Shown one piece after another: positions 1-23,254 of a stretch of DNA of 64,000 nt. Position 1 is the stretch's first letter. Each line of letters starts with the position of its first letter. Both the position numbers and the translations under genes were made by a program. The notes beneath the pieces were generated by a model. The model made no database searches. It was not told the DNA's origin and saw only the letters and a list, made by a program, of their open reading frames with translations. The stretch spans positions 2,232,001-2,296,000 of the forward strand of contig NZ_CP158687.1 of NCBI RefSeq assembly GCF_040580765.1. Direction: 5' to 3'. This DNA comes from Lentibacter algarum. GTDB lineage: Bacteria > Pseudomonadota > Alphaproteobacteria > Rhodobacterales > Rhodobacteraceae.

Positions 1-1
1 C

Positions 2-205
2 GAAGTACTGAAGGTGATGCAATCGCTCGCCGCTGAAGGGCGCACAATGATTGTCGTGACCCACGAGATGGGCTTTGCCCGCGATGTATCCTCTGAAGTT
101 GTTTTCCTGCATGAAGGCCGAATTGCCGAGCAAGGCCCGCCAGAGGAAATGTTCACCAATCCCAAGACAGAAGAATTCAAGCGCTTTATCTCTAAGGTAA
201 GCTAG
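2..205 (+). CDS. amino-acid ABC transporter ATP-binding protein, C-terminal end (partial)
   Basis: The reading frame is open from the first bases of the window, so the true start lies to the left. About 67 residues remain. They include the H-loop (VTHEMGFARDV) and the C-terminal stretch typical of GlnQ/HisP-like polar amino-acid transporter ATPases (GRIAEQGPPEEMF followed by FKRFIS). The product would power import of a polar amino acid from the inner membrane. Walker A, signature and Walker B motifs are outside the window. The next gene is a racemase-type enzyme, which fits amino-acid metabolism, but the substrate cannot be told. Confidence 0.85.
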   Translation, partial: EVLKVMQSLAAEGRTMIVVTHEMGFARDVSSEVVFLHEGRIAEQGPPEEMFTNPKTEEFKRFISKVS

Positions 206-248
206 CGGGGTTTCCGCCCTGAAATCTCAAGCCATTTAGGTCAAAAAT

Positions 249-1403
249 ATGCCAGAACATTCAACCGCTTTTGCCCCTACCGCCCTGCGTGGAGGTATCC
301 TGATCGAAGCTGCCGAATTGCGGATCGTGAGCCTGCCTCTGCTCACACCTTTTGTCATCTCAAGCGGCACTATGACCTGCAAGACATTCCCGCTTTTGGT
401 GCTGAAGGGCGAAGGGCTTGAGGGCATAGCCGAGGCGGTGATGGACCCAACCCCCGACTATCTTGAGGAAACCATTCCCGGCGCAATGGCCTTTCTGCGT
501 GATGTTCTGCTGCCCTCGATCATCGGCAAGCGATTTGCATCTCCTTACGAGCTGGAGCCATATCTCGCGCCGTGGCGCGGCAACCGGATGGCCAAAGCCG
601 TTGTTGAAATGGCGTTCTGGGATATGTGGTCCAAAAGCCTTGGCATCCCCCTGAAGGCAGCCCTCGGCGGTGTGGGCAATTCTGTTGATGTCGGCGTCAG
701 CCTTGGCATCGCACCTATTGAGAAAACCCTTGATCGCATCGACGAAGCTTTGGCCAGCGGCTACAAACGCACCAAGTTAAAGATCGCACAAGGCCATGAC
801 GTCAAAATCGTCGAGGCCGTGCGCAACCAGTACCCCGATATTAAGCTGACGGTAGACGCCAATACCGATTACGGGCTTGCTGACCTGCCGGTTCTGCAGG
901 CTCTGGACGGCTTCAACCTTGATTATATTGAACAGCCGCTGGCGTTTGACGATATCCATGATCACGCCCAAGTGCAGGCATCGCTAAAAACGGCGATCTG
1001 TCTGGACGAAAGCATCCGCAGCGCCAGCGATGCACGCAAAGCCCTGGAAATGCGGGCGGCGCGGGTCATCAACATCAAGGTCGGTCGCGTTGGCGGGTTT
1101 GCCGCGGCCCGTGCCATCCACGACACAAGTGCGGCCTTTGGGGCTCCGGTCTGGTGCGGTGGCATGCTGGAGGCAGGCATCGGTCGCGCGCATAATATCC
1201 ACCTTGCAACTTTGGCCAATTTTACCAAACCCGGGGATACATCAAGCGCCAGCCGCTATTTCAAGCGTGACATCATCAATGAACCGCTGGAAGCCTCAAA
1301 CGGCGAGATGCCCGTTCCAGCAACCGGCCCCGGCATCGGCGTGACGCTGGACCACGATTATCTAAAATCCGTTACCGATCACGTTGAGGAGATTGGGACA
1401 TGA
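249..1403 (+). CDS. enolase-superfamily o-succinylbenzoate synthase / N-acylamino acid racemase
   Basis: This 384-residue protein belongs to the MLE/enolase superfamily, OSBS/NSAR branch. Visible residues are the KxK acid/base motif in KRTKLKIAQG, the metal ligands in TVDAN, YIEQPL and CLDES, and the second lysine in INIKVGRVGG. The C-terminal GGMLEAGIGRAHNIHLA block is typical of this branch. NSAR members racemise N-succinyl amino acids; OSBS members act in menaquinone synthesis. The overlapping GNAT gene downstream and the lack of men genes favour N-acylamino acid metabolism (inference). The start is uncertain: a strong GGAGG at 291-295 lies just before a CTG codon at 300, and residues after it match the usual N-terminus of the family, so the ATG at 249 may not be used. 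Confidence 0.85.
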   Translation: MPEHSTAFAPTALRGGILIEAAELRIVSLPLLTPFVISSGTMTCKTFPLLVLKGEGLEGIAEAVMDPTPDYLEETIPGAMAFLRDVLLPSIIGKRFASPYELEPYLAPWRGNRMAKAVVEMAFWDMWSKSLGIPLKAALGGVGNSVDVGVSLGIAPIEKTLDRIDEALASGYKRTKLKIAQGHDVKIVEAVRNQYPDIKLTVDANTDYGLADLPVLQALDGFNLDYIEQPLAFDDIHDHAQVQASLKTAICLDESIRSASDARKALEMRAARVINIKVGRVGGFAAARAIHDTSAAFGAPVWCGGMLEAGIGRAHNIHLATLANFTKPGDTSSASRYFKRDIINEPLEASNGEMPVPATGPGIGVTLDHDYLKSVTDHVEEIGT

Positions 1404-2359
1404 ACCAGCCGACGCCAGAACTGACGATACGCGAGTTGAACTCGGTTGAAGAACTAAAACGTTCTGAGGCGTTTCAACGCGAAGTCTGGGGACAAGACGA
1501 CCCGGCCGACAATTCTGACATCATGCTCGCGATTCAGCACGAAGGGGGATTGGTTGCCGGTGCTTTTTCCGAGGGGCGCATGCTGGGCTTTCTCTTTGGT
1601 TTTCCAACCAGTCAACCCGATGTGCAGCATTCGCACCGACTAGCCGTGCATCCAGATAGCCGCGGCATGGGGCTGGGCGTAAAGCTGAAATGGTATCAGC
1701 GCGACTGGTGTCTTGAACGAGGTATCACGACGGTGCGTTGGACCTATGACCCGCTCCGCCGCGTCAACGCGAACCTGAACATCGCAAGGTTAGGGGCGAC
1801 CGCCGGGACCTACTACCATGATTACTATGGCAAGATGGAGGGTATCAACGCCGGTGTCGCCTCGGATCGCCTGCTTGCCGAATGGCACCTAACCGCGCCC
1901 GAAGTCGTACACCGCGCCGAAAATCCGCGCACCCCGCCTGTCACCGGCGGCGACCTCCGTGTCGCAATCCCTGCTGATTTCGGTGCACTTCTGTCGAACA
2001 ACCTCAAGGGCGCCGTTGCCGAACGCCTGCGCGTGCGCGCAGCACTTACGGCTGCTTTCGCGGACGGGTTTCGCATTTCGGGCTTTGACACAAAAACCTG
2101 CGAGTATCTGTTGACCAACCCGTAGCAACTTTTTTGCCCGCCCCATTGCCGGTGGCGTTGTGGAGCCTAAATAGGCGCAATGCTGTCGACAAAATCATCC
2201 GCGAGGAGCAACCGCGTGCCCCTCCTCTTTTCCCGACGCACTCCATGAATCAACGGCCGGTTTCCGTGCTTACTTCAAAATGTTTGCAGTGCAGCATCTG
2301 GGAATAAGGGCTCAGACCCGACCTTAGCTGCGCGACCCACCAAGGTCCGCTAAGGGCCG
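1222..2359 (+). repeat. long inverted repeat, left arm (at least 1138 bp)
   Basis: This arm covers the 3' end of the OSBS/NSAR gene, the whole GNAT gene and ~230 bp after it. It matches 62863-64000 on the opposite strand; paired coordinates add to 65222 throughout. The GNAT proteins are identical, and every stretch of non-coding sequence compared by eye (2126-2359) also matched. Similarity stops at 2359, 17 bp inside mobile element copy 1. The outer limit is unknown because the right arm runs to the window edge. Confidence 0.93.
1400..2125 (+). CDS. GNAT-family N-acyltransferase
   Basis: The product has 241 residues and its start overlaps the preceding stop by 4 bp (ATGA), so the two genes are translationally coupled. 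The GNAT fold is seen in [26 protein letters not shown] (residues ~77-105), which holds the acyl-CoA-binding R/Q-x-x-G-x-G/A type loop in the variant form SRGMGLG. In known pathways a GNAT succinyltransferase, an N-succinylamino acid racemase and an M20 desuccinylase convert D- to L-amino acids. The pair here fits the first two steps; the assignment is inference. A second copy with identical protein sequence lies inverted at 63097-63822. Confidence 0.75.
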   Translation: MNQPTPELTIRELNSVEELKRSEAFQREVWGQDDPADNSDIMLAIQHEGGLVAGAFSEGRMLGFLFGFPTSQPDVQHSHRLAVHPDSRGMGLGVKLKWYQRDWCLERGITTVRWTYDPLRRVNANLNIARLGATAGTYYHDYYGKMEGINAGVASDRLLAEWHLTAPEVVHRAENPRTPPVTGGDLRVAIPADFGALLSNNLKGAVAERLRVRAALTAAFADGFRISGFDTKTCEYLLTNP

Positions 2360-2366
2360 AAAGCGC

Positions 2367-2933
2367 CTACAGCAGCTCCACAGCCTCGCTAAGCTGCTCA
2401 GAATTCACATCGATATATCTCTGGGTAGTGCTTATGTGACTATGCCCCGCCAGCTCTGCTAACAAGCGCACCCCCACGCCTTTGTTGGCCAACCTCGTGA
2501 TGTAAGTGCGTCTTCCCGAATGGCTTGAAGCATCCTTGAGACCCACAGCTTTGTAAATGTCCAAGAACAGCTGACACATGGTGTTGGCTGAGAAGTGCCC
2601 GCCCTTTTGGCTTTCAAACAGCGGGCGCTGTGGATCGCCCAAGTATTTACTCGCACCATAGTCTCCAAGTGCTTTGCGTAGGCGCTGGTTCAAATACACC
2701 GTGCGTGTGTGCCCACCTTTGCTCTGTGCTGCGCTTAGGATGAACTGCTCACGCACGTTGCCTGCTTCATCAAACACGTTGCCCACGGTGAGCGCAGCAA
2801 TCTCCTTGGCCCTCAGCCCTGCGTAAAAGCTGGTGAGTATGATTGTCTCGTCACGTGTTGGATGACGACGACTGCGGCAGTACTGTATAACCCTGCGCAG
2901 TTGCGCCTCGTTCAATGTCTGTGCTTGGCGCAT
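2367..2933 (-). CDS. short tyrosine recombinase of the mobile element (copy 1)
   Basis: This 188-residue protein is little more than a catalytic domain of the phage-integrase family. It shows R41 (AGLRAKEIAAL), K72 (SKGGHTR), H138-x-x-R141 (SHSGRRTYIT), H164 (GHSHIS) and the nucleophile Y173 (TTQRYIDV). The N-terminal SAM-like core-binding domain of normal integrases is missing, so the protein is much shorter than the usual ~300-400 residues. A GGGGAT ribosome-binding site lies upstream. It sits at the extreme left end of the element, 8 bp from the shared end motif, as expected of an enzyme that acts on that end. The copy at 48725 differs by only two residues. Confidence 0.9.
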   Translation of the reverse strand: MRQAQTLNEAQLRRVIQYCRSRRHPTRDETIILTSFYAGLRAKEIAALTVGNVFDEAGNVREQFILSAAQSKGGHTRTVYLNQRLRKALGDYGASKYLGDPQRPLFESQKGGHFSANTMCQLFLDIYKAVGLKDASSHSGRRTYITRLANKGVGVRLLAELAGHSHISTTQRYIDVNSEQLSEAVELL

Positions 2934-3050
2934 GTGCTGATCCCCTCAAAACCTAAGCTTTTGTGTGCTTTGAGTATAAAGTCTGAGGTATTGGTTGGGC
3001 GACCGGAAATGGCACCAAATGGTCCGTCAATGAATTCAATGAGTTAAGCA

Positions 3051-3084
3051 AAAACCTCATACTATACTGATTGTATGAGGTTTT
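3051..3084 (-). terminator. rho-independent terminator after the AAA+ cargo operon
   Basis: Two perfect 12-bp arms (AAAACCTCATAC and GTATGAGGTTTT) enclose a 10-nt loop. On the minus strand the hairpin is followed by a T run. It lies 45 bp after the stop of the last cargo gene (3129). A weaker version of the hairpin is at ~49405-49440 in copy 2. Confidence 0.7.
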
Positions 3085-3128
3085 GGGCTGTGTGGTTCAG
3101 CTCAAGCAAAACTGCGCAGTTAAAGCCT

Positions 3129-3860
3129 TCAGGGTGTGCTCACAGCGACTTGCTGCTTTGCCAATTGCAGATGATTGACTAAGGGAGCAAAATCGCCTGC
3201 CATCTTGAGCAGTACTTTGTATTTGGCGAAGTCGTACAAGTGCACTTGATCGATGGCGGGCAAGATCACCTGCAGCTGTTTTACTAGATGTGCAAACTGA
3301 GGTTCTGCCTTTAACGCACTCAGCCGTGTCCAAAAATGCTCAAGCCAAGGCAGTAGCGCCGCGAACTCAGCAAAGCGCCCTTCTGCAAGGTCGCGTAGGT
3401 GGCTTTCATAAAAGCCAGCTAATTCGAAGTCTTTGAGTTCAGCTTTGTTGGAAACATAGAGGGCATGGTCCAATGCGCCCAAGACAACAGCTGGCGCTAC
3501 ATACGTCGCAGTCAGCTCTTCTAATGTACCGTCAAATAGGGCTGAACATCCATTGAGGGTAAAGTAGTCGTGAACGTTATCACCAAAACGAAACGTCGAC
3601 TGCAGCTTTACAAGATAGACCTCTTCATCGATTTTTTGCATGACGCTGTTGGGTCTTAAAATGATTTTGCTGTCAAAAGGTATCTTTGAAACAGCGCTGT
3701 CCAGCTCACAGGCGTAATCGCGACTATCAAGATCAGCATGTGAAGCTGGCACTTCCTCTTCAACAATATGCCACAGCCGCACATCGTATTCGTTGGCGAT
3801 CTGACAGGTTAGATGAAGCGCTGCGATGCATTTGTTGTATGTGTCTAAAGCATTGGTCAT
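3129..3860 (-). CDS. hypothetical protein, third gene of the AAA+ cargo operon
   Basis: The product has 243 residues and is not recognised. There is no signal peptide or membrane segment; the sequence looks like a soluble helical protein with many leucine/alanine-rich stretches in the C-terminal half (residues ~150-240). The start overlaps the stop of the upstream AAA+ gene by 4 bp (ATGA), so the two products are made together and probably interact. Its position beside a clamp-loader-like ATPase suggests a partner subunit, as small partner subunits accompany some phage clamp loaders, but no motif supports this. It is absent from copy 2 of the element. Confidence 0.7.
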   Translation of the reverse strand: MTNALDTYNKCIAALHLTCQIANEYDVRLWHIVEEEVPASHADLDSRDYACELDSAVSKIPFDSKIILRPNSVMQKIDEEVYLVKLQSTFRFGDNVHDYFTLNGCSALFDGTLEELTATYVAPAVVLGALDHALYVSNKAELKDFELAGFYESHLRDLAEGRFAEFAALLPWLEHFWTRLSALKAEPQFAHLVKQLQVILPAIDQVHLYDFAKYKVLLKMAGDFAPLVNHLQLAKQQVAVSTP

Positions 3861-4498
3861 GGCGCTAGCGCCTTGCTGGCGATAACCGTCGCTTCAACGA
3901 GATCGATCAGATCACGTGCGCTGCCTTGAAAGCTCTGCAGCATCTGCTCAACATCAGCTCTTGCCGGGGTCAGCCCCTCGGCTTCCAAGATAGCCTTTGC
4001 ACGATCGACCCAATCAAGGTTGCTGGGCGGGTCTAGGTCAATCACGCGGAACCTGCTGAGCACGGCACCCATGATGCGGCTCTTGTGGTTGGTCGTGGCC
4101 ACAAAACGGATCAGATGCCGTTTGCTATCCATAAACTCGCGGAACTTGGGCTGCACTGTGCGTAGGTCCATCTCATCGATCTCGTTGATGACGATCATGG
4201 CTTTGTCAGGATTGCCAAACATCTGATAGTTTACCTCAGACATGATCTTGGCTTCATAGTCTTTACCAAGACTGGCAGCATTACACTCCCACTGCATGTG
4301 TTGAATATTGTGATGCTCAAAGTAACTGTGAGCGATCACACGTGCCGCTTCTGTCTTGCCTGCACCTGGTGGGCCTGCAAGCAACAAAGGCTTAGCGGGT
4401 GGCAGCTCACAATATGAGCGAATAACACTGGCATTGAGCGGGTCCGCAATGACCAAATCGCCAAAGCTGCGTGGTAGGTGTTTAAGATCAAATGACAT
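3857..4498 (-). CDS. mini AAA+ ATPase resembling a clamp-loader (RFC/gp44-type) subunit
   Basis: The start at 4498 was chosen because AAAGGAG precedes it at good spacing; longer in-frame starts lack this. The 213-residue product begins with a clamp-loader-like box (LPRSFGDLV) and has Walker A GPPGAGKT (42-49), Walker B MIVINEIDE (101-109), sensor 1 N137 (ATTNHKS) and an SRFR arginine-finger motif at 148-151. It then has a short lid domain and no C-terminal collar, so it is about two thirds of the length of RFC small subunits or T4 gp44. ATP-driven remodelling of a DNA-bound ring or of a partner is the likely role (inference). It is the middle gene of a three-gene operon. Confidence 0.82.
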   Translation of the reverse strand: MSFDLKHLPRSFGDLVIADPLNASVIRSYCELPPAKPLLLAGPPGAGKTEAARVIAHSYFEHHNIQHMQWECNAASLGKDYEAKIMSEVNYQMFGNPDKAMIVINEIDEMDLRTVQPKFREFMDSKRHLIRFVATTNHKSRIMGAVLSRFRVIDLDPPSNLDWVDRAKAILEAEGLTPARADVEQMLQSFQGSARDLIDLVEATVIASKALAP

Positions 4499-4565
4499 GC
4501 TCAGCTCCTTTGGATGCATGTAGATGGAGTGGGGCAAAATATGACTGCCCCACTCACCGTTAGAT

Positions 4566-5384
4566 TTATCCATAGGTATGGGGTGCTGCGCCGTTTGTGC
4601 GCACGCCACCGCCAGACACGCTGACTTGTGCACCGGAACCAACGCGGATCATTTTGGAGGCAAACTCACGCACATCACGTGCACGCTTGGTTGCCAGATC
4701 ACCTGCGTCAAGCTTGGCGAGGCTTTCTTGGGCGCGTTCATCCAAGTCTTTGCCCGATGATACCAAGACAGCATCAATGATGCCCGCTTCGTTACACCCG
4801 TAAACAATCGTGCCTGTGCCGTTGTCATTGCAGCGCACTAGCGCGACCGCATAGTCTTCCTCGTAATCTGTGTTTGGCTGGATGAACGTTGGCAGGTCAA
4901 ACGTGCTCACGCCCACTTGCACTTCCTGCAGACCCTCAAGCGCCAGCTTCTTAAAATCCTCTTTGGACATAGTCGCAGATTTTGTAGATTTGGGCACGCG
5001 GCGCACTTCTTCAATGCCACCACATTCTTGCACATAGCTGGTGAAGCTCTGATCTGGCCCCTTCATGTCGTGAGCGATGGCCACAACCCGTGCATAGGCT
5101 TCTTCACGGCGACCTTGTCCCGCAAACACATAACGGATCACTTTAAGGGCAAGGCTGGTGTTTGCTTGAGTTTTAATCTCAAGATCAGTCAAAAGAGCTG
5201 CAAACGCGCGGCGCTTGCCCACCTCGGTTTTTAGCTCCGCATACAGCGCGTAAACCCCTTCAAGAATTGCATAGAGCTCATCGTTGGCAGCACGCAGCGT
5301 GCCTTCTTCCCACACGGCACGGGCTGCGTGCATTGCATCGAGGCGTTGGTGGATGTCAGTCTTAATTTGTGTCTGAACAGACAT
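4566..5384 (-). CDS. hypothetical protein, first gene of the AAA+ cargo operon
   Basis: The start at 5384 is preceded by AAGGGA; the longer in-frame ORF from 5435 lacks a ribosome-binding site. The product has 272 residues and is not recognised. The first ~150 residues look helical and alanine-rich. A linker with several K/S/T residues (VPKSTKSATMSKEDF) leads to a second region of mixed composition and a glycine-rich tail (SVSGGGVRTNG). There is no membrane segment. The AAA+ gene follows after 67 bp on the same strand. The layout suggests a substrate or partner of the ATPase; the function is unknown. Confidence 0.7.
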   Translation of the reverse strand: MSVQTQIKTDIHQRLDAMHAARAVWEEGTLRAANDELYAILEGVYALYAELKTEVGKRRAFAALLTDLEIKTQANTSLALKVIRYVFAGQGRREEAYARVVAIAHDMKGPDQSFTSYVQECGGIEEVRRVPKSTKSATMSKEDFKKLALEGLQEVQVGVSTFDLPTFIQPNTDYEEDYAVALVRCNDNGTGTIVYGCNEAGIIDAVLVSSGKDLDERAQESLAKLDAGDLATKRARDVREFASKMIRVGSGAQVSVSGGGVRTNGAAPHTYG

Positions 5385-5570
5385 AGTGTTTCCCTTCATC
5401 AATAATTGGGCCGTCTTGGGCCTGTTTGTTTGCATCTGGGTTTTAAAGATTTTGGGGCACTACGAGCTGCGCCGATCAATCTTCGATTTTTAAAACCATC
5501 AGATTGATACTTCTATAAAGACTAAATCGAGCTAATTTTGACTCCTTAACTTTTTGAAGGAGACGGAGTC

Positions 5571-6347
5571 ATGGTCAATAATCAGGCCAATGAAAGCTCA
5601 GCAACGCTGGTGTTTGAGACCACCCCACCTTATCTCAGTGTGACATCAAAAAGCCGGTTTAAGGGACGGCGCAACCTGCCCTATCCGGAAGCCCAGCCTT
5701 ATAAAGCCTCCATATATTATTGGTGGTGGGCGTTTTTGAAACGCAACAGGAACTATCAAATAACCTGTGCAAATAACGGCAAGGGCCACTTATCTAAACT
5801 GTATCAGGACTTTGGAAATATTTTTGATATTGCGTTCGAGGATTGGTGGAAGCATGGAAAGTATCTGTTTGCCGAGCAGAGCGCTCTTGTAAGCAAACAG
5901 CCCGATATTGCGGAAGGCGATATATTGTATCGCATTGATCCTTACCGCTCATTCAATCAAATCCATGAAGAAATCAAAGCCATTTACGGGAACGCAACTG
6001 TTATGCGTTCCATAAGTGAGCGCCGCAGAACCTCCTCGGCAAAATACCCAATTTATGCAAATGCCTCCGCCTATAATCTTTACCGCGTGCTTAAGGTGTG
6101 GGACTTGCGGTGCAAGCACTCCGAAGCATCGGCTTATGATTTGGGAATTATGGCAGGTTTAAAGCCAAACCTTTTACCACCCTCAAGGTACGGGCACACT
6201 AGAACGCGCAGTGCCGCTGCAATTGAGCGACATAACAAGCGCGCTCACATCAGCATAGCCAACCAATCCAACAGATATTTGCGCACTGCAGAGCAATATA
6301 TAGACAATGTTGGGCGTGGAGAATTCCCAAAAGCACTGCGACGATAA
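5571..6347 (+). CDS. hypothetical protein, divergent cargo gene
   Basis: The product has 258 residues and is not recognised. A GAAGGAG site precedes the ATG closely. It is rich in aromatic residues (YYWWWAFLKRN at ~49-59, FEDWWKHGKY near 92) and has a basic Arg/Ser/His-rich C-terminal region (HTRTRSAAAIERHNKRAH), which suggests nucleic-acid contact. It is transcribed away from the three-gene AAA+ operon, with ~190 bp between them for two divergent promoters. It is absent from copy 2, so it is cargo. Confidence 0.65.
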   Translation: MVNNQANESSATLVFETTPPYLSVTSKSRFKGRRNLPYPEAQPYKASIYYWWWAFLKRNRNYQITCANNGKGHLSKLYQDFGNIFDIAFEDWWKHGKYLFAEQSALVSKQPDIAEGDILYRIDPYRSFNQIHEEIKAIYGNATVMRSISERRRTSSAKYPIYANASAYNLYRVLKVWDLRCKHSEASAYDLGIMAGLKPNLLPPSRYGHTRTRSAAAIERHNKRAHISIANQSNRYLRTAEQYIDNVGRGEFPKALRR

Positions 6348-6379
6348 AATTGGGTCATTGATTTTATTGAATAATAAGG

Positions 6380-6502
6380 CAAACACGCTGTTTGGAAACG
6401 CCATGTTTGAGTTTTTTGTCAAACACGCTGTTTGCAACAGGAGTGTTTGAGTATTTGCAAATAAACGCCGTGTTAACACCGTAAGTTCAAACAGCGTGTT
6501 TG
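6380..6502. repeat. three 15-bp palindromic repeats, CGC-centre type
   Basis: CAAACACGCTGTTTG occurs at 6380-6394 and 6420-6434 and its reverse complement at 6488-6502. Arms CAAACA/TGTTTG flank a CGC centre. Half-sites (ATGTTTGAG, GTGTTTGAG, AACGCCGTGTTAACACC) lie between them. The block is almost unchanged at 50589-50711 in copy 2, although the genes around it differ. A protein-binding array (iteron, partition or regulatory site) is likely. Confidence 0.75.
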
Positions 6503-6591
6503 ACCTGAACATTGCTGTCTCACGCCCTCAGTGCTGACATTTTATAGGGCAGATTTGCTGTGTTTGTGTTGGGATGATGTGTGAGTTGAGC

Positions 6592-6924
6592 TCAGTACTC
6601 ATCAGCCAACATGATTGTGAGCACCCGTGCAGTCACAGCAGGATCACTTGGATCCGGCGAGTGCATCTGCAGGTCTAGATCGTAGTAGTCGAACTTCCAA
6701 AAGAACGTGTTACCTGAGAGCTTGATGACCCCACAGTCGTGCTCCGCGTATGGGTCGTTGTCTGGTGTAAAGCCATCGAAGTCCTCTACAGCGATTAACA
6801 GCTCTGCCACTGTGAGGGGATCGCAAGACAATACGCCCTGAGTGAGTATCCAGCGACAATGATCAAGACGCTGCCGCGCTCGATCATTAAGTGCTGCTAT
6901 TTTAGCTGTATTTGCGTCAGGCAT
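6592..6924 (-). CDS. DUF3768 family protein (copy 1)
   Basis: The 110-residue product matches the DUF3768 pattern: an N-terminal IAALNDRARQRL helix, ILTQGV, then AVEDFDGFTPDNDPYAEHDCGVIKL, a W-K/F-x-D-Y-Y-D segment and the C-terminal RVLTIMLADEY. The family is common on alphaproteobacterial plasmids and accessory regions and has no known function. It overlaps the upstream DUF6641-like gene by 8 bp, so they form one transcription unit. Copy 2 carries the orthologue at 52867. Confidence 0.88.
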   Translation of the reverse strand: MPDANTAKIAALNDRARQRLDHCRWILTQGVLSCDPLTVAELLIAVEDFDGFTPDNDPYAEHDCGVIKLSGNTFFWKFDYYDLDLQMHSPDPSDPAVTARVLTIMLADEY

Positions 6925-7375
6925 TTGCTGCTGCCTTGGCCGCCCCTGGTTTAAGACGTGGTTGCCGCTCTGCTACTCGGGTAATGGCCGCGTCCAGCTC
7001 CCCTGCAGCTGCCGCGTTTAGAAATGCATCAAGCACAGCTGACACCTCATCCAATGACTTCACAAACACTGCGTTGTTGGTGCCATCAGCTGCAATCACA
7101 CGTGCTCCATAACGGCACTGCACGTACCAGCCGCTGTCTTGTGCAAAGAACCACGGGCGGACACGGCGATGCGTTTTGACCATCACACGCTCTCCCATGT
7201 CGTTGGTCATCCACTTATGCCGTTCAACGCGGTGGTCTTGCTTGTTGAGTGCTGCCGCGTGCACCAGCTTTTGTTCCTTAAGCCCTGCTACGAGTTTGTC
7301 ACGTCGCGCTATGATGGGATCGCGCTTGGTGCTGCGATCAACTGTTTTGAATGTAAGCTTTGCGAGATGTGTCAT
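6917..7375 (-). CDS. DUF6641-like accessory protein (copy 1)
   Basis: The 152-residue soluble protein has the layout of DUF6641-type proteins as I recall them: a basic N-terminus (KLTFKTVDRSTKRDPIIARRDKLVAGL), a VKTHRRVRPWFF core, YVQCRYGARVI, a central VKSLDEV region and an alanine-rich tail. The family label is from memory and tentative. The stop overlaps the DUF3768 gene. The same pair in the same order is at 53192-53650, so it is backbone and not cargo. The biochemical role is unknown. Confidence 0.75.
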   Translation of the reverse strand: MTHLAKLTFKTVDRSTKRDPIIARRDKLVAGLKEQKLVHAAALNKQDHRVERHKWMTNDMGERVMVKTHRRVRPWFFAQDSGWYVQCRYGARVIAADGTNNAVFVKSLDEVSAVLDAFLNAAAAGELDAAITRVAERQPRLKPGAAKAAANA

Positions 7376-7794
7376 GTGCGCTCCTTGCTGTTTGGTTACA
7401 GCTAAAGCGTATGTTCAGACTTAATGTAGAGCTACCGGAAAGACGCCCAAGATACTGATTATATGTGATAATATGAGATTATAGGATAATGCGCAGATAA
7501 GTGCAGCATTGGTCATATGTGTTCGCGCTTAGTGATTGGTGTATAGAAAGCAGCGCTCACATACCGACCCCGCGCCCACAAAAAAAGCGTCTAACGGTAT
7601 GCTCCGCTGACGCTGTGTTTAGCTCTTATGTCTCTGTCTGTTTGATCAAGTTCGTTTGAGCTAGTCTTGATGTTCTGTGTTCTTTTGAACCTTCGTTAGT
7701 TCGAACAATTGCTCGTGAACAAGGATGTGCCAAGACCTGCGCCATTGGCATCTGTGTTGTTCAAACTGCTCAGGTGTTTGCTGCGCGAAGGGGC
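7376..7794. other. non-coding stretch between rep and the DUF6641-like gene
   Basis: I see no gene here. The part 7430-7520 is AT-rich (repeated TGATAATATGA-like sequence) and fits a promoter for the DUF6641/DUF3768 pair. The part 7580-7614 is a terminator for rep. At 7640-7730 there are several GTTCGAAC/GTTC-type short repeats. The whole stretch is conserved at 53651-54066. Confidence 0.5.
7580..7614 (-). terminator. rho-independent terminator of rep (copy 1)
   Basis: On the minus strand AGCGTC and GACGCT pair, with an inner CGG/CCG stem around AGCATA, followed by seven T residues. It lies 180 bp after the rep stop. The same structure with one loop change is at 53854-53888. Confidence 0.75.
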
Positions 7795-8436
7795 TTAGCC
7801 ACGCTCCATCATCTGCAAATCACCGCTTGCCTCATATCGTGCCTGTTGTGTGTTTAATGCCTGTTGTGCCTGCTTTAGCCAGAGTGGGCTGGCTGCCCTT
7901 TGAATACGGTGTGCCTGTTGCTCAGCGTAGTGCTCATTTAATGTGTGCTGTGGCGGCGGGGTTGATTGCTTGGCGTCCCAACACAGACCGTCCGAAATTG
8001 TATCATTGCCCATGCGCCAATACTCATGCGTAACATAGCTCGTGACAGCTGCGCGGTCTTGTACGGGCATGATCCAGTTTTTAGCCAGCGGTGCTGTTTG
8101 AGTGTGATGCTGTGCCCACACTGCATTGAGCACACAGCACATGTGCTCCGTATCTTGCAGTGGACTTGGCATGACAAAGTGAACATGGAAGTTCTCATGG
8201 TCTGACCCTTCATGCGCAAAGCACCAGCGTGGCACGCGTGTGTTCTGGCGCTCTGCTGCTTTGCCATAGATCACGCGGTCAATCTTGTTCCAGTAGCTGC
8301 GCAGGAGCTTGTCAGCGGTGTTGCGGCCAATGGTTCTGCCGTTCACGAACTTGAGCGTACCAAACACATTCCAGTCTTGTGCCAACAAGTGCTGTACCAA
8401 TGCCTGTCGTTCCTGTTTGCGCTGCTCAAATCCCAT
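7795..8436 (-). CDS. HUH-type replication initiator endonuclease, Rep (copy 1)
   Basis: The product has 213 residues. Motif I is WNVFGTLKF (22-30); the HUH motif is ENFHVHFVMP with H84 and H86; the tyrosine motif is SYVTHEYW with Y134 and Y139. This set is diagnostic of rolling-circle HUH endonucleases that nick an origin and join covalently to its 5' end. The C-terminal ~60 residues are a Gln/Ala/His-rich helix region with no helicase domain, so host helicase would be needed. An iteron-rich non-coding region lies directly upstream. A co-resident tyrosine recombinase suggests an element that integrates and also replicates or transfers as a circle. Confidence 0.85.
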   Translation of the reverse strand: MGFEQRKQERQALVQHLLAQDWNVFGTLKFVNGRTIGRNTADKLLRSYWNKIDRVIYGKAAERQNTRVPRWCFAHEGSDHENFHVHFVMPSPLQDTEHMCCVLNAVWAQHHTQTAPLAKNWIMPVQDRAAVTSYVTHEYWRMGNDTISDGLCWDAKQSTPPPQHTLNEHYAEQQAHRIQRAASPLWLKQAQQALNTQQARYEASGDLQMMERG

Positions 8437-8512
8437 TGCGGACCTCCATGTTTATTTATCAACGAAGGCGCAAAACGGGGAAGAAACAGATTATGCTGTG
8501 TCCCAAAAACAG

Positions 8513-8720
8513 GCACGCACAATTGTGTTGGAACCACTGTGTTGTAGGTTTGTGGTTGCAACATAGTGGTTATCCCACAGTCTCCTGAGAAATTCCCACA
8601 ACACAGTCTCGCCCTACAGTGTCGCAAGAAGTTTCCGCAACACAGCTTCTGGCTTGGGTGCTGAGCGACACTATCCGCCCTAGTGTTTGCTCCAACACAA
8701 CTGTGTTTTGATAAATACTT
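8513..8720. repeat. iteron-like AACACA/TGTGTT repeats upstream of rep (putative origin, copy 1)
   Basis: The stretch between the divergent rep and 108-residue genes is packed with AACACA and TGTGTT words in both orientations. An inverted pair AACCACTGTGTTG ... CAACATAGTGGTT has one mismatch over 13 bp, and ACACAATTGTGTTG is near-palindromic. The region is conserved in copy 2 (54780-54950), although copy 1 carries ~45 extra bases of the repeat. Placement next to an HUH Rep gene makes an origin or Rep-binding site the best reading (inference). Confidence 0.65.
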
Positions 8721-8747
8721 GCGAGGCCATAACACTGGGAGAATTGG

Positions 8748-9074
8748 ATGAGCATAAGACTTTTAGAACACATGCGCGATGAATTGATCGCAACCGGTAT
8801 CGTGCAGAACACACCAGAGTTCTGTCACAGCTGGCTGGGGCGCAGTGAGGGCTATATCCGCGTGCTGCGCTATCACAACACGGAACCAAGTGTTGGCACG
8901 CTCAGTATATGTTCGAGCAAACTCGGCTATTATGCAGCGCGATTGGCAGAAAGTAATCAGCAAGATCATCAAGCGTGGGGCAAGCGTTTGGCTTATCTAA
9001 AGGCGCTGTGTGACAGGGCCATAGCTGAGCAGGCAGAAGCGGTTTGGCGTGCGCCGGAACGGATGGCGGTATAA
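8748..9074 (+). CDS. small conserved element protein, DUF6626-like (copy 1)
   Basis: The 108-residue product starts LLEHMRDELIATGIVQNTPEFCHSWLGRSEGYIRVLR, then a predicted helical region ending in APERMAV. The WLGRS-Y pattern recalls DUF6626-type small accessory proteins; this name is tentative. TGGGAGAA precedes the start. It is transcribed away from rep across the iteron region, so it may regulate or assist replication. The orthologue at 54979 is ~90% identical. Confidence 0.75.
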   Translation: MSIRLLEHMRDELIATGIVQNTPEFCHSWLGRSEGYIRVLRYHNTEPSVGTLSICSSKLGYYAARLAESNQQDHQAWGKRLAYLKALCDRAIAEQAEAVWRAPERMAV

Positions 9075-9227
9075 TGCGATTTAATCATTGCAACGTCATT
9101 TATGACGTATCTCATCCGAAATTCCCCTTGCAGCCTCAAAAATCTGCGCTGCGGTTTTTTAGCGGGAAGTACTTACACTTTTGGGGTGGCCTTTTGCGTA
9201 CCCCACTCCCCCAGCCAGGAGCAGAGT

Positions 9228-9590
9228 ATGACTGACCGCGAGGAACTGCGCCGACTGATAGATGTGATTGAGAAGGCTTCAGCTAGTGTTCAGCTGGATC
9301 AAGCCATTGAGGACATTAAGATCTTTGCCAACACCACAAGCTTCTTGGCCAACAAGCTTGAGACACGGCTCAAAGGTGGCGACGTCAATGCCAAGAAGCA
9401 GCCAAAGTCGCGCATTGGCAAAGCCATTGCAGCTCCGCAAATTCCCAAGCCCAATGTGCCAAGCCAACAACAGGCTGCGCCAGACGCTGCAAGTGGTGGC
9501 ATGCCCTCAGCCCTATCAACTTCAACATCACAGGCGGATTACGACAGGCTCAAGCCGCAGGGCGCGCAGGGACCAATATCCGGCAATTGA
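9228..9590 (+). CDS. small element protein with helical N-terminus and Pro/Ala/Gln-rich tail (copy 1)
   Basis: The start at 9228 was chosen for the AGGAG before it and because the copy 2 protein begins at the same MTDREELRRL. Of 120 residues, the first ~65 are helical (DVIEKASASVQLDQAIEDIKIF, LANKLETRL) and the rest is low-complexity, rich in P, A, Q and S, ending LKPQGAQGPISGN. The function is unknown. It is the last backbone gene before the shared right end. Confidence 0.75.
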   Translation: MTDREELRRLIDVIEKASASVQLDQAIEDIKIFANTTSFLANKLETRLKGGDVNAKKQPKSRIGKAIAAPQIPKPNVPSQQQAAPDAASGGMPSALSTSTSQADYDRLKPQGAQGPISGN

Positions 9591-9697
9591 GTATTGTGGT
9601 GTCACACAGCGTCTGTGCGCGGGCTGTAGGCGGTGACCACGTTGCGTCAGCGCTCAGTGTGGCTAGCAACTAGGGTTACTGCGCTACGCTGCGTTTT

Positions 9698-10131
9698 GAG
9701 CGCTTTTTATGCAAAAAGCGTTGTAACGAAGTACTGCGAAACTCTATTGACTGTCAGGCTGAAAGGCATGCCTTAGAAAGTTACTATTGAGACATTCGCA
9801 CAGCGGTCGTTGGTCCAAGACGCAGCGAACGGCAAGAAAGAGCCCCACAGCGGAAGTCCTTATTTTGTGCTGCGTGCGCTTGCAGCACGGAATGTGCTGC
9901 ATTGGCGAAGGTTTTGATGCTGCAATACGGCGTAAGAAGCAGCCATTCGCACAACCCGGAGCATGGATATGGCAGTTAAAGATCAAGTCGCGGAGCTTTC
10001 CCGCCGCATAAATCCCAAGCAAAAAAACCTAAGCACCATTGACGGGCCACAGTGTGTCGACCCGATGCTATGCTCCAGACGTCAGCGCGGTGCTGACGTC
10101 TGGGTTTGGAGGGAGGATTGGAGGGCATGTT
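9698..10131. other. non-coding stretch before the second recombinase
   Basis: There is no convincing gene. It holds degenerate sequence with short self-complementary pieces such as GCGCTTTTTATGCAAAAAGCG near 9700-9720. It ends in a strong hairpin at 10075-10103 just before the recombinase gene. Confidence 0.5.
10075..10103. promoter_or_regulatory. perfect 12-bp inverted repeat upstream of the recombinase gene
   Basis: CCAGACGTCAGC and GCTGACGTCTGG flank a 5-nt GCGGT loop and end 28 bp before the start codon at 10132. There is no T run, so it is more likely an operator, attachment core or mRNA hairpin than a terminator. Confidence 0.55.
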
Positions 10132-10764
10132 ATGCCACGAGTCCAACTTCCCGCAGTCACCCCAAAACGCAAAGCTTGGAACAAAGGGCGGATCATCGGC
10201 CAGAAACGACCGCTGTTTCCCAAACAGGTTTGGGCAATCCGCGCTCGGCTCGAGATTGCAGGCTACCTTCGCGACCTCGCACTGTTCAACGTTGCGATTG
10301 ATAGCAAGTTGCGAGGGTGCGACTTAGTCAAACTCGCCGTGACCGATTTGGTCAAAGATGATCACGTTCGCGAACGAGTTTCGGTGATCCAGAGCAAAAC
10401 CAAAAAACCGGTTCGGTTTGAACTGACCGGAAACACGAGAGAAACTATTACTGCTTGGGTTAGGTCGCCTGAAATGATCGGCTGCCTTTTCATGTTTCCC
10501 AGCCGCTTCCACGACCGTCTGCACATCTCCACGCGGCAATATGGTCGACTTGTTCGTGATTGGGTGACTGCAATTGGACTGGAACCGAGCGGTTACGGCA
10601 CTCATTCGCTCCGCCGGACCAAAGCTGCCGAGATATACCGCAAGACGGGCAACCTTCGCGCGGTGCAGCTTCTACTTGGTCACACAAAAGTTGATAGTAC
10701 GGTGCGATATTTAGGCGTTGAGTTGGAAGATGCTCTGAGTATTGCGGAGCGCATAGATATCTAG
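10132..10764 (+). CDS. tyrosine recombinase / site-specific integrase (short type)
   Basis: The start at 10132 follows GGAGGG at ideal spacing. The product has 210 residues and the usual catalytic set: SKLRGCDLVKL (first Arg), a Lys in QSKTKKP, HSLRRTKA (His-x-x-Arg), LLGHTKVDSTVRYLGV (second His and Tyr nucleophile). This class of ~200-residue integrases with an N-terminal KRKAWNKGR box is common beside IS elements and plasmid islands. It is unlike the 188- and 408-residue recombinases also in this window. A hairpin follows the stop. Confidence 0.88.
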   Translation: MPRVQLPAVTPKRKAWNKGRIIGQKRPLFPKQVWAIRARLEIAGYLRDLALFNVAIDSKLRGCDLVKLAVTDLVKDDHVRERVSVIQSKTKKPVRFELTGNTRETITAWVRSPEMIGCLFMFPSRFHDRLHISTRQYGRLVRDWVTAIGLEPSGYGTHSLRRTKAAEIYRKTGNLRAVQLLLGHTKVDSTVRYLGVELEDALSIAERIDI

Positions 10765-10771
10765 GCAATGT

Positions 10772-10797
10772 TGGCGAACGGTGCTTGCCGTTCGCCA
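10772..10797. terminator. perfect 10-bp hairpin after the recombinase gene
   Basis: TGGCGAACGG and its reverse complement flank TGCTTG, 8 bp after the stop codon. No T run follows, so it is a weak or bidirectional terminator candidate; it could also be a recombination site. Confidence 0.5.
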
Positions 10798-10846
10798 GAT
10801 CACAAGAGATTTGAGATCACGTGGCGGCGAAAACGAAATGCAAGCC

Positions 10847-12394
10847 GATTCCGTTGAAAAAGTCGCTGATTTCGGGGCGTCTGTTTGAGGTATTGGTCTG
10901 ATTTCGTTCAGATGTCTAAGGCGTAGCCGCCGCTTCAACCTGCGGCGGGCTCCATCGGTTTGAGCTTTGCGAGTTTCCGGAGGTTTTGGGCGGTGGCTGC
11001 GAGGGTAAATTCGTCTTGAACGCCGCATGGGCCCCGTAATCGGAGCCGCCCCAGGCCGAGGATGCGTTTGAGGTGGGCAAAGAGCATTTCGACCTTTTTT
11101 CGTCGCGCCTGAGCCTTGGGGTTGAACTCAGAGGCAGTGCATTGGCGAGCGAAGTCTCTGACGATCTCATATTTATCGCGATGGACCGAACGCGTTTCCG
11201 CGTTAGGGCAGCACTTTGCTTTCAGCTCGCATCCTGTGCAGTCTGATTTCAGTGCCCGATAGTTTCTGGATTTCCAAACTGGCGCATTCCGTTTTGGATC
11301 AGAATAGGTCCGCCATGTATGCCGCATCTCTTTGCCGCCCGGGCAGATGTACCGGTCGTTCTCATCATCCCATGTGAAGTCGGAGCGCGAGAAGGTTCCG
11401 TCCGTCCGTTCGCCTTTGTCAAAGACGGGAATAAAGGGGAGGATTTGGCGCATTAATGCCAGCCAGACCAGAGTGTCTGAAGACCCGTAGGCCGTGTCTG
11501 CCGCGATCCAATCGGGCTTCACGCCAAAGCGCTTTTCGGTCCGATCTAGCATCTTGCGCATCGCGCCGACCTCAGCGGTCTTGTTCGACCGGCTGGCGTC
11601 AACATCGACAATGATGCCGTGGTCCGTATCGATCAGATAGTTGTCGGAATAGGCAAAGAATGCCGGGCCTTTGCGCGCGGCAGTCCATTGGCTTGCGGGG
11701 TCAGCATGGGCGGTGAACTTTGGCTTGGCGGTGGTCGCTGCTCCGAAGGCTTCGTTGTCCAGAGTGTCGAGATACTCGCGCACCGCCCGGGGCGCATCGT
11801 TCGGATTAATCTCGCGTGCTGCCCAATCCTCTGGATTGCTGGAGTTCTGCTTTTGGACATCAGCGCTGATCAAGCTAGCATCGACGGCGAAGCCCTGGCC
11901 GCCGACCAAACCCTCTTCCATGCAGCGCGCGACCGTCCCCTCAAACACATGGCGCAACAGGTCGCTCTCCCGAAAGCGACCGTGACGGTTCTTGGAAAAG
12001 CTCGAATGATCCGGGATGTTGTCCGTCAGATCGAGCCGGCAAAACCAGCGGTATGCAAGGTTCAGATGCACCTCTTCGCACAGCCGCCGCTCGGATCGAA
12101 TGCCAAAGCAATACCCGATCAGAAGCATCCGGATCAGCAGCTCTGGGTCGATGGAGGGCCGACCAGTGTGGCTGTAGAAATCCGCTAGGTGAGCACGGAC
12201 GCTGGTCAGATCAACAAAACGATCAATCGACCGCACCAAGTGATTATGAGGAACGTGATCCTCTAGCGAGAACTCGTAGAACAAAGCTGCCTGCGCCTCT
12301 TGCCTCGGTCCCATCATCCCCAATCCTCCCATTCGTTGAGAGAATTGAATCAGCCGATCGACCGCCAATCAAGTAAGAGTTTTTCAACAAAATC
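10847..12394. mobile_element. IS1182-family insertion sequence
   Basis: Terminal inverted repeats GATTCCGTTGAAAAAGTC (10847-10864) and the complement of GATTTTGTTGAAAAACTC (12377-12394) match at 15 of 18 positions. A 4-bp AGCC is present directly outside each end (10843-10846 and 12395-12398), consistent with a target-site duplication. One full-length transposase gene fills the element, so it looks intact and fairly recent. Confidence 0.85.
10935..12368 (-). CDS. IS1182-family transposase
   Basis: The 477-residue DDE transposase has the N-terminal family region FSLEDHVPHNHLVRSIDRFVD, then IDPELLIRMLLIGYCFGIRSERRLCEEV. The catalytic acids are probably in VDASLISAD, ADTAYGS and KKVEMLFAHLKR. 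A cysteine cluster (CTGCELKAKCC) near residue 380 fits the zinc-ribbon insertion of the family. The true start may be a little downstream (MGGLGMMGP). The gene appears undamaged. Confidence 0.92.
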   Translation of the reverse strand: MAVDRLIQFSQRMGGLGMMGPRQEAQAALFYEFSLEDHVPHNHLVRSIDRFVDLTSVRAHLADFYSHTGRPSIDPELLIRMLLIGYCFGIRSERRLCEEVHLNLAYRWFCRLDLTDNIPDHSSFSKNRHGRFRESDLLRHVFEGTVARCMEEGLVGGQGFAVDASLISADVQKQNSSNPEDWAAREINPNDAPRAVREYLDTLDNEAFGAATTAKPKFTAHADPASQWTAARKGPAFFAYSDNYLIDTDHGIIVDVDASRSNKTAEVGAMRKMLDRTEKRFGVKPDWIAADTAYGSSDTLVWLALMRQILPFIPVFDKGERTDGTFSRSDFTWDDENDRYICPGGKEMRHTWRTYSDPKRNAPVWKSRNYRALKSDCTGCELKAKCCPNAETRSVHRDKYEIVRDFARQCTASEFNPKAQARRKKVEMLFAHLKRILGLGRLRLRGPCGVQDEFTLAATAQNLRKLAKLKPMEPAAG

Positions 12395-12403
12395 AGCCCA
12401 TAT

Positions 12404-12580
12404 TCACGGATGCTGCGGTCGCAGCCCGCTTTGCGCTTTTCCCAGCGGCTGCAAAATCTGGGTTTGGTTGAATTCACAGAGTTGCGGGACTTTCCCGTCG
12501 TCGTCAGGGTGAGCGCGAAAGAGGACGCGTCCAAAGGCAGCTAACAGCTTGCGTTTTTTCAAAAGTTCGGCGGTGACCAT
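12404..12580 (-). CDS. possible small protein beside the IS (doubtful)
   Basis: A 58-codon frame starts MVTAELLKKRKLLAAFGRV and ends SGLRPQHP. It reads as protein-like sequence with a basic start, and may be a remnant of a gene interrupted near the IS end. There is no clear ribosome-binding site and I do not recognise a family. From 12581 to 12783 I see nothing but the creatinase leader. Confidence 0.25.
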   Translation of the reverse strand: MVTAELLKKRKLLAAFGRVLFRAHPDDDGKVPQLCEFNQTQILQPLGKAQSGLRPQHP

Positions 12581-12783
12581 TCTTGATCGGATGATGCTTT
12601 TCGTCTATTGACGGATCGTGGGATTGACGATGGCGTCGTCACTAGTCGACATCCGATTAGAGCATCCCTACCCAACCATCCTGAACGCCGGGATCTTGCT
12701 TTGCCGCTGTGTGGTGAGGGAAGGTGCAACCGGTATGTTTGGCACTCCACTTCAGCACACTCGGCCTGAACAGGAGTAGTCCG

Positions 12784-14016: not shown

Positions 14017-14033
14017 CCGATCCTACTTTACGG

Positions 14034-14057
14034 TATGAGCAGCTATAGCTGCTCATA
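14034..14057. terminator. perfect 24-bp palindrome between convergent genes
   Basis: The palindrome centres on AGCTATAGCT and lies between the ends of the creatinase gene (+) and the GlxA-type regulator gene (-). The position suggests a shared bidirectional terminator, although a strong T run is missing. Confidence 0.55.
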
Positions 14058-14074
14058 TCAGCTCTGTTCGTGAA

Positions 14075-15202: not shown

Positions 15203-15238
15203 GACTTATTGACCAGGGAGGTTGCGTGCAGGACGCAA

Positions 15239-16572: not shown

Positions 16573-16577
16573 CTCGG

Positions 16578-19320: not shown

Positions 19321-19391
19321 GGGACTTTCGCGTGTCTGGGAAAATGGGGCGGCCACAGGGCCGCCCGCTTTGGTGTCTTTAGGCCGTCAGA

Positions 19392-20531: not shown

Positions 20532-20584
20532 TTGTGTCTCCCATTTGGTCGCTCTTTCCCAGCAAAAGAGCATTTGATTTTTCG

Positions 20585-20602
20585 CTGAACCATAGTGTTC
20601 AG
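20585..20602. promoter_or_regulatory. short dyad upstream of the importer operon
   Basis: CTGAAC and GTTCAG flank CATAGT, ~55-70 bp upstream of the substrate-binding protein start and just after the LysR gene. The size and place suit an operator. No experimental or comparative support is available. Confidence 0.35.
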
Positions 20603-20678
20603 TCCGATTTTTTTTAAATGGTATGGTAAAACAGGACTTTTGGGAAATTTATCGTTGATATGCTCATATAATGAGCGG

Positions 20679-23242: not shown

Positions 23243-23254
23243 CTTTTCTCTCCC

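Follow-up and report, generated by a model that had tools for sequence, protein, structure and literature searches.

Tandem tRNA-Phe islands of Lentibacter algarum share a backbone with a predicted HUH-type initiator and two tyrosine recombinases

How large metabolic islands move and multiply is often unknown. Here we analyse 64,000 nucleotides of Lentibacter algarum DNA (hereafter the window; positions 2232001–2296000 of a single-contig assembly of 3,281,784 bp), in which an earlier note, made from the letters of the DNA alone, had recognized a 7-kb modular element encoding a short tyrosine recombinase (Rec) and a putative replication initiator of the HUH type (Rep). The real unit is larger: an island flanked on both sides by a 46-bp repeat of a tRNA-Phe 3′ end in direct orientation, with the 7-kb block as its core. 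Coordinates below are those of the window unless marked as genome positions.

Several classes of mobile element resemble these islands in outline, as judged from the available parts of the papers cited. Actinomycete integrative and conjugative elements (AICEs) of the pSAM2 type possess a tyrosine integrase, integrate at a tRNA 3′ end, have a rolling-circle initiator in part of the cases and can stand in tandem at one tRNA (PMC3218068); the islands described here likewise combine a tyrosine integrase, a tRNA 3′ end as target, a predicted rolling-circle-type initiator and tandem stacking. Integrative and mobilizable elements (IMEs) of Streptococcus share with them direct repeats, a complete tyrosine integrase and an HUH protein (PMC5357655). 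Tycheposons, described in Prochlorococcus and also reported in Methylophilaceae, resemble them in the border tRNA, the tyrosine recombinase and the metabolic cargo (PMC10872708), and tRNA islands of the Islander type in having an intact tRNA at one end, a displaced fragment at the other and a tyrosine integrase (PMC4383910). Strand-biased circularizing integrative elements (SEs) have the gene order intA-CDS2(Tfp)-intB-CDS4(Srap), 6-bp footprints, no HUH enzyme and, according to their authors, no homologues in Alphaproteobacteria; they and the GInt elements are similar to the present islands in carrying more than one tyrosine recombinase per element and cargo that differs among relatives (PMC9345347, PMC10214605).

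Two copies of the 7-kb block had been reported. Searches of the whole genome by BLAST with its left end and by tblastn with Rep and Rec gave four, all on one strand and within about 112 kb. We refer to these core blocks as copies A to D: A lies at about genome 2205353–2213796, B and C lie inside the window at about the places and with the gene order already assigned to them (Rec, DUF3768, DUF6641-like, Rep, DUF6626, 121-aa protein), and D lies at about genome 2312939–2317524. The tRNA-Phe 3′ end occurs five times in the genome, as the intact gene (genome 2198356–2198430) and as four fragments (starting at genome 2219848, 2272894, 2294593 and 2334885). These fragments, which start at the anticodon loop, are fully identical over 46 bp to the end of the intact gene. 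The fragments split the region into four tandem islands, I1 to I4, of 21.5, 53.1, 21.7 and 40.3 kb, which hold copies A to D; each contains one integrase gene (Int), one Rec and one Rep. The core copies are all on one strand because of tandem insertion at one tRNA, and strand bias as a mechanism was ruled out on this account. The island boundaries in the window are as follows.

1..40939 (genome 2219848–2272939): island I2, holding copy B, its right three quarters in the window; it starts about 12.1 kb before the window and has the 46-bp repeats at both ends
40894..40939, plus strand: tRNA-Phe 3′ fragment at the I2/I3 junction, an exact 46-bp copy and likely attachment (att) site
40894..62638: island I3, 21.7 kb, holding copy C, with 46-bp tRNA-Phe 3′ repeats at both ends
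62593..62638, plus strand: tRNA-Phe 3′ fragment at the I3/I4 junction, likely att site
62593 to genome 2334930: island I4, holding copy D

Alignment of four of the five tRNA-Phe sites, one of which holds the whole gene, showed a conserved arm carrying AACAC..GTGTT-like dyads just after the tRNA part; the fifth site has 75–77% similarity to those arms over about 200 bp. Relatives in the genus share the upstream flank and the tRNA-Phe gene, the far flank of the array being unmatched; searches with the flanks of copy D and with both ends of the array found no empty site in relatives. The DNA past the same tRNA-Phe was unlike the array's far flank in five of five genomes (G248, G249, G250, G252 and G253). 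Because G250 has an integrase-like gene there (28% identity to Int) and G253 an att-arm-like stretch (77%), the tRNA-Phe site of the genus would seem to be a general integration hotspot. GC skew was near zero (−0.017 to +0.019) in seven of seven 20-kb pieces of genome 2190001–2330000, and beyond 0.05 in either direction in 16 of the 20 stretches sampled outside the island array.

The end motifs that the earlier note had taken for the ends of the unit do not bound it. The left edge is merely the stop codon of Rec beside variable flanks, and on the right the pairwise similarity of the copies extends past the conserved tract proposed as the end.

2290..2358, plus strand: degenerate interspersed repeat of about 70 bp at the Rec end of copy B, from a profile scan
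9640..9697, plus strand: conserved tract proposed earlier as the right end

The same profile scan located the ~70-bp repeat to the left of copy C (48648–48716), of copy D and of the copy in genome G045 (see below). As a target site it was ruled out, being found away from the core too; it appears rather to mark cargo junctions. A palindromic target TCCGCT..AGCGGA at the left end was likewise rejected, since with up to three mismatches it matched copy B only and a shorter pattern only B, C and D, as was a 6-bp SE-like crossover common to the left and right edges, since the six edge bases mostly differ within a copy when compared by eye.

Each of I1 to I4 encodes, on the strand opposite to Rec and convergent with it, an Int of about 410 aa, separated from Rec by 16 bp to about 12 kb across islands. 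This full-length enzyme had been overlooked because it lies several kilobases off, outside the range that the earlier note had marked. Int of I3 matched PF00589 over the cut-off, as did its I1 copy, and is likely to be the enzyme that recombines the tRNA site; no sequence relative of Int was found in the PDB. Rec, in contrast to a full-length enzyme, is a recombinase of 188 residues that was rightly described as having no core-binding domain. It matched PF00589 and aligned with residues 103–274 of a 292-aa Xer-like protein, that is, with only the catalytic part of Xer recombinases; because the alignment covers these residues alone, we consider Rec to lack the N-terminal domain.

42728..43954, plus strand: Int of I3, 408-aa tyrosine integrase
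2367..2933, minus strand: Rec of copy B, 188 aa, catalytic domain only (PF00589 over residues 6–178)
48725..49291, minus strand: Rec of copy C, 99% identity to that of copy B

Beyond copies A to D, the Lentibacter genome has relatives of Rec at 1.405 Mb (about 53–54% identity) and 3.238 Mb (60%), and weaker ones elsewhere. Loci L014 (genome 1397001–1415000) and L015 (genome 3228001–3246000) combine a distant Rec with a DUF6626 protein (about 35%), L014 having an Int-like gene (30%) as well; Rep was not found in either by sequence, and the two perhaps belong to a sister family. Short Rec relatives also occur on plasmids, at 434862 of pAB510d of Azospirillum sp. B510 (49%) and in Piscirickettsia (about 40%). 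A Rep search of those plasmids gave no match, so that the family of Rec extends beyond the islands described here.

Rep has the sequence motifs of an HUH enzyme, in agreement with its earlier assignment: the hydrophobic motif I (F25-G-T-L-K-F30), the HUH motif (H84-x-H86) and a conserved tyrosine (Y134) are invariant in 24 Rep sequences. Its nearest Pfam family is a replication protein (E 0.064), no relaxase family of Pfam matched it, and no sequence relative was found in the PDB. The Rep and Rec frames are open in all four copies of the Lentibacter genome. As for the gene pair labelled DUF3768/DUF6641, the first assignment was confirmed, whereas the second protein stayed below the Pfam cut-off and is called DUF6641-like here. 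The components of the core are listed below.

7795..8436, minus strand: HUH Rep of copy B
6592..6924, minus strand: DUF3768 protein of copy B (PF12599, 8.8e-33)
6917..7375, minus strand: DUF6641-like protein of copy B (PF20346, E 0.0013, 19.2 against a cut-off of 27 bits; phrog_31551, 7.4e-13)
8748..9074, plus strand: DUF6626 protein of copy B (PF20331, 2.8e-39)
9225..9590, plus strand: p162, 121 aa in copy B, no family match
8437..8747: intergenic region between Rep and DUF6626 in copy B, with the inverted pair GTATTTATC/GATAAATAC in the copies compared, read by eye
6346..6576: palindrome block of copy B, with CAAACAC..GTGTTTG-like dyads and a 97% copy in C at 50555–50786
52867..55788: core of copy C, with DUF3768, DUF6641-like, Rep (54067–54708, minus strand), DUF6626 (54979–55305, plus strand) and p162

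The gap between Rep and DUF6626 is a candidate origin or operator. In the palindrome blocks, the dyads of A and C are spaced by about 40 bp, and those of B are diverged; the 140 kb around the blocks contain 10 occurrences of AACACNGTGTT, which was absent from 400 kb sampled elsewhere in the genome, so that the palindromes noted before prove to be enriched around the islands. In I1, a transposase with an rve domain lies between DUF6641 and Rep.

The Rep profile gave 23 loci in named genomes, 22 of them Rhodobacterales by name and one listed as a beta-proteobacterial metagenome-assembled genome. Thirteen of these loci have 5.5 kb or more of contig past Rep; in 11 of them Rec follows downstream at a distance of 1.8–6.0 kb and on the strand of Rep. 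The exceptions are L070, with Rec on the other side, and L072, a Rep fragment without Rec. The remaining 10 loci end at contig edges with no Rec within reach. Rep and Rec are thus neighbours in other genomes as well wherever enough contig was present for this co-occurrence test, with the two exceptions named. Among the 12 named loci at which Rec is present, 11 also gave Int, the twelfth having just 1,973 bp of contig left.

Islands could be delimited in 12 cases, in 8 genomes, with sizes of 13.9–53 kb; ten are at tRNA-Phe and two at tRNA-Cys. They were located via Rep, and Rec matches below 45% identity were dropped before counting, so that only the results on Rec, on Int and on single occurrence count as tests. 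Rec and Rep occur once in each island, Int once in 11 and twice in the second island of XHP0102, and in 12 of 12 Int lies inside, toward the intact tRNA. The DUF6641-like and DUF6626 genes are present in all 12, DUF3768 in 11 and p162 in 8. In Aestuariivita, Yoonia vestfoldensis SKA53, Marimonas, HTCC2083, Planktotalea frisia and Nereida, the intact tRNA-Phe borders the island on the Int side, and a tRNA-Phe fragment lies beyond DUF6626. XHP0102 has two tandem tRNA-Cys islands (contig 1, 453819–498408), in which the tRNA-side Int shows 40–41% and Rec 88–89% identity; in its second island, an Int with 88% identity to those of the tRNA-Phe islands adjoins Rec, and a different Int (41%) adjoins tRNA-Cys, a combination that suggests a composite island. 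In G045 (probably Planktomarina temperata), Int (67%) is beside tRNA-Met, and the island is bounded at one end only in the stretch read.

To assess conservation, amino-acid sequences were compared pairwise among 13 islands, namely the 12 delimited ones and that of G045. Mean identities in per cent, with the minimum in parentheses, were 88.0 (80.3) for Rec, 76.6 (62.5) for DUF6641-like, 75.1 (62.3) for DUF6626, 73.7 (37.0) for Int and 69.6 (56.3) for Rep in all 13 islands, 61.9 (47.3) for DUF3768 in 12 and 66.1 (49.6) for p162 in nine. With its highest mean identity, Rec, not Int, is the most alike component across islands. In a family-level sample, 6 of 248 genomes, including the Lentibacter genome, had Rep, two of them only with weak matches (28–30% identity). 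The relatives of Rep in a protein collection formed 632 clusters at 90% identity, and most of the 120 listed are on short contigs. No Rep match was found in the phage, plasmid and viral-contig collections, and a free plasmid, phage or viral contig was rejected as an explanation on this ground.

Some loci depart from the common form. Some copies are broken, as in HTCC2083, and contig 5 of that genome (G258) contains, at 115810–123714, a 7.9-kb segment bounded by tRNA-Phe fragments that lacks Int, Rec and Rep and holds only a relative of a 184-aa protein described below. More tRNA-Phe ends are present on other contigs of Nereida, Planktotalea arctica and Roseovarius. Loci L043 (G181) and L044 (G115) are compact forms with Int (31%), Rec (65–66%), a Rep-like open reading frame (ORF; 23–28%) and DUF6626 within a few kilobases, and L043 also holds a relative of p289, which is introduced next.

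Copies A and B carry a clamp-loader-like module as cargo. For copy B, the label given earlier was supported by profile matches of the ATPase to the replication factor C (RFC) small subunit (8.2e-30) and T4 gp44 (3.4e-19) in the PDB, which stop before the collar domain.

3857..4540, minus strand: clamp-loader-like AAA ATPase of copy B, 227 aa (phrog_168, 4.6e-24)
4566..5390, minus strand: p289, partner of the ATPase, which it adjoins, 274 aa in copy B
3129..3860, minus strand: 243-aa protein downstream of the ATPase, cargo of B, only a below-cut-off match
5571..6347, plus strand: p258, 258 aa, usually next to p289, no family match

The ATPase and p289 occur together in 9 of the 12 delimited islands, or in 10 of 13 if G045 is counted, placed between Rec and DUF3768 in I1, I2, HTCC2083 and G045 and between Rep and DUF6626 in Aestuariivita, Yoonia, Marimonas, P. 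frisia, Nereida and island 2 of XHP0102. Mean (minimum) identities across islands were 43.6 (29.5) for the ATPase and 46.4 (28.5) for p289 in 10 islands each and 37.8 (22.8) for p258 in eight; the 243-aa protein has 92% identity in L051 and 90% in L061. PADLOC matches to the ATPase were mainly over the AAA part. The model of p289 was poor (mean pLDDT 67) and gave no PDB match at E ≤0.001.

The remaining cargo differs from island to island around the shared backbone, in line with the earlier description of a modular mobile family with a variable middle. Domains were scanned in 16 of the 17 listed ORFs of at least 110 aa in I1 (9 directly, 7 through copy B), in 18 of 22 such ORFs in I3 (12 directly, 6 via a homologous copy), in 18 of the 25 listed ORFs of at least 150 aa in window 10000–42000, which is mostly I2 (ten only at E up to 1e-10), and in five proteins of I4; the part of I2 before the window lay outside the scan, as did other genomes' islands, save a few clamp-module proteins. 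I1 encodes PvuRts1I-like and Eco57I-type restriction enzymes, a RelA/SpoT-domain protein, a DUF2779 protein and a phosphoesterase. In I2 there are an ABC-transporter ATPase, two solute-binding proteins, M20 and M24 peptidases, an aldehyde dehydrogenase, an FMN oxidoreductase and an amidase, and in I3 an AcrB-type and HlyD-type efflux pair, a MerR regulator, SCO1/SenC, PCu(A)C, a DsbB-like protein and an M23 peptidase. Relaxase, type IV secretion system (T4SS), FtsK, terminase and capsid domains were absent from the island proteins scanned, which cover I1 to I4 in part; the absence of relaxase and capsid genes noted earlier therefore holds for these proteins. A PHROGs scan of the core and cargo of B gave no packaging or capsid-hijacking gene.

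Between Rec and DUF3768, copy D has a 267-aa LGT-thioredoxin-like ORF, and copy C the following stretch.

49662..52863: cargo of copy C, with a 163-aa ORF, two palindrome blocks, 184-aa and 112-aa ORFs, a 79-aa ORF, tRNA-Met (52264–52340) and a BLUF protein

The tRNA-Met and the BLUF protein named before in this middle segment were found, and the labels "membrane" and "winged helix-turn-helix" had no support from Pfam or NCBIfam. The set of 79-aa ORF, whole tRNA-Met and BLUF gene (52002–52863) recurs at 2842–3703 of the Marivita locus L065. The 184-aa protein, which has no Pfam match, is encoded at 50826–51380, at genome 2273659–2274162 and at 117162–117713 of the HTCC2083 contig (28–50% identity), twice near att sites. 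To the right of the core, about 270 bp are common to A and C (56007–56738; genome 2213800–2214060), with the start of an MmeI-type gene; the fragment matched type IIG enzymes, and its frame in C stops after 243 aa.

A 6.5-kb module, 99.985% identical between I2 and I4, fills the gap between Int and Rec in I2 and is inverted and placed between the att arm and Int in I4.

1..2364: end of the 6.5-kb module in I2 (whole module genome 2227861–2234364, window −4139 to 2364)
62857..64000 and on: inverted 6.5-kb module in I4 (whole module genome 2294857–2301361)

Pieces of the ~70-bp degenerate repeat are present at the ends of the module. Its near identity means that the exchange was recent and makes the module our best evidence that cargo passes between islands, for which either Rec or ordinary recombination may be responsible. 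The inverted arms flank about 60 kb, a segment that homologous recombination between them could invert.

We consider it fairly probable that the blocks are the core of tandem tRNA-Phe islands in which Int excises the island and the HUH Rep likely nicks the resulting circle, giving rise to rolling-circle copies. Int would excise and integrate the island at the tRNA and would also set the target, as suggested by its drop to 40–41% identity at tRNA-Cys while Rec stays at 88–89%. Rep would nick an origin, perhaps in the Rep–DUF6626 gap or in the palindrome blocks, and so initiate rolling-circle copying of the island once it is excised. The RFC/gp44-like ATPase, together with its partner, may assist in loading the sliding clamp of the host onto DNA nicked in this way. 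The step after Int would fall to Rec, which would most likely resolve the multimers made by Rep into unit circles or else swap cargo at its own 3′ edge. The scanned proteins gave no transfer genes, so that a helper, such as a conjugative plasmid, a phage or a vesicle, would be needed for spread to new cells. A bolder version, which we hold to be unlikely, makes these islands a distinct class of "open-slot" self-copying islands, in which Int picks the tRNA, Rep and the clamp loader amplify the circle, and Rec is a dedicated cargo-exchange enzyme at slots between att arm and Int, Int and Rec, and Rec and DUF3768. If it were true, islands stacked at one tRNA would trade whole operons (compare the 6.5-kb module).

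Other readings explain parts of these observations. That the islands are IMEs, with Rep really a relaxase that nicks an origin of transfer, the island riding on the T4SS of a conjugative plasmid and replication being secondary, is doubtful, although we give it some weight. Streptococcal IMEs pair a tyrosine integrase with rolling-circle-related relaxases, and MobT of ICEBs1 serves as relaxase and as initiator (PMC5357655, available part); the present islands have the direct repeats, integrase and HUH protein that such a reading calls for. However, the scans of island proteins gave neither a coupling protein nor an accessory mobilization gene nor a relaxase domain, the Pfam family nearest to Rep is a replication protein, at the E value given above, and a clamp-loader module beside Rep suits replication better. 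The clamp loader might instead point to a phage satellite, packaged by a helper phage whose replication it parasitises or poisons, as the ATPase is of the RFC/T4 gp44 type and has three weak partial matches to Pelagibacter phage clamp loaders. This seems quite improbable to us: no terminase, capsid or packaging gene was found in the scanned proteins, the islands reach 53 kb with metabolic genes, and the viral-contig scans gave no relative.

The reading of the earlier note, a free-standing 7-kb element with its own ends that Rec moves into larger unrelated islands, now appears very unlikely. It would explain why similarity stops sharply at the Rec stop codon, and near the conserved tract on the other side, and why several copies abut the same 70-bp repeat. 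In 12 of 12 islands, however, the core is present once, inside the tRNA repeats, in the same orientation to the tRNA and paired with a separate Int; cargo lies within the block as well as on either side of it, and the left and right edges have no common core sequence by eye. We also regard as improbable that these are old, immobile islands with Rep and Rec as remnants, their stacking recording past insertions only. Breaks in some copies (HTCC2083) and the rve transposase inside I1 would fit, but the Rep and Rec frames are open in all four Lentibacter copies, the near identity of the 6.5-kb module indicates recent exchange, and Rec is highly conserved. Excision by Int followed by copying of the circle by Rep thus remains the reading that we favour.

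Compared with the systems introduced at the outset, the islands come closest in outline to AICEs or to IMEs with a rolling-circle initiator. To this extent the statement that no named class fits has to be modified, as a tRNA-targeted tyrosine integrase with a rolling-circle-type initiator matches both. From AICEs they differ in that the FtsK/SpoIIIE-type Tra was not found by Pfam (16 of 17 I1 ORFs, 18 of 22 I3 ORFs), that Rep is of another family as far as tested, that the hosts are alphaproteobacterial, and that a second, catalytic-only recombinase and a clamp-loader module are present. Concerning AICE replication proteins, the scanned proteins gave no Prim-Pol or DUF3631 match, the RepSA model lying outside this search. 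From IMEs they differ in the lack of TcpA or another coupling protein among the scanned island proteins, in an HUH protein that by Pfam is outside the superfamilies listed in the available part of the source, and in their size (13.9–53 kb), large metabolic cargo and second recombinase. We set them outside both classes because the AICE Tra was not found in the scanned proteins and a relaxase role of Rep, as in IMEs, is only putative. As far as the available parts of the respective papers describe those elements, tycheposons differ in their backbone, which here consists of Int, the short Rec, the HUH Rep and DUF3768/DUF6641/DUF6626; SEs and GInts differ in gene order and in that the present islands encode an HUH-motif Rep, and SEs also in their footprint; and the general definition of Islander-type islands does not include a replication-like core shared across genera. 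A literature search of 5.39 million papers, which left out most subscription papers, found no mention of DUF3768, DUF6641 or DUF6626 and no description of this backbone among the matches listed. We therefore class the islands as tRNA-targeted integrative islands with a likely replication core, outside the named classes compared.

What these islands keep across genera and target tRNAs is a backbone in which two tyrosine recombinases are combined with a predicted rolling-circle initiator and, in most cases, a clamp-loader-like ATPase; transporters, catabolic genes, efflux pumps and restriction enzymes vary around it. With 632 clusters of relatives, most of those listed being on short contigs, the Rep family may be a widespread vehicle of flexible genes that has escaped notice. 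The islands allow a direct test of whether an island is amplified after its excision and of what purpose a recombinase reduced to its catalytic domain serves.

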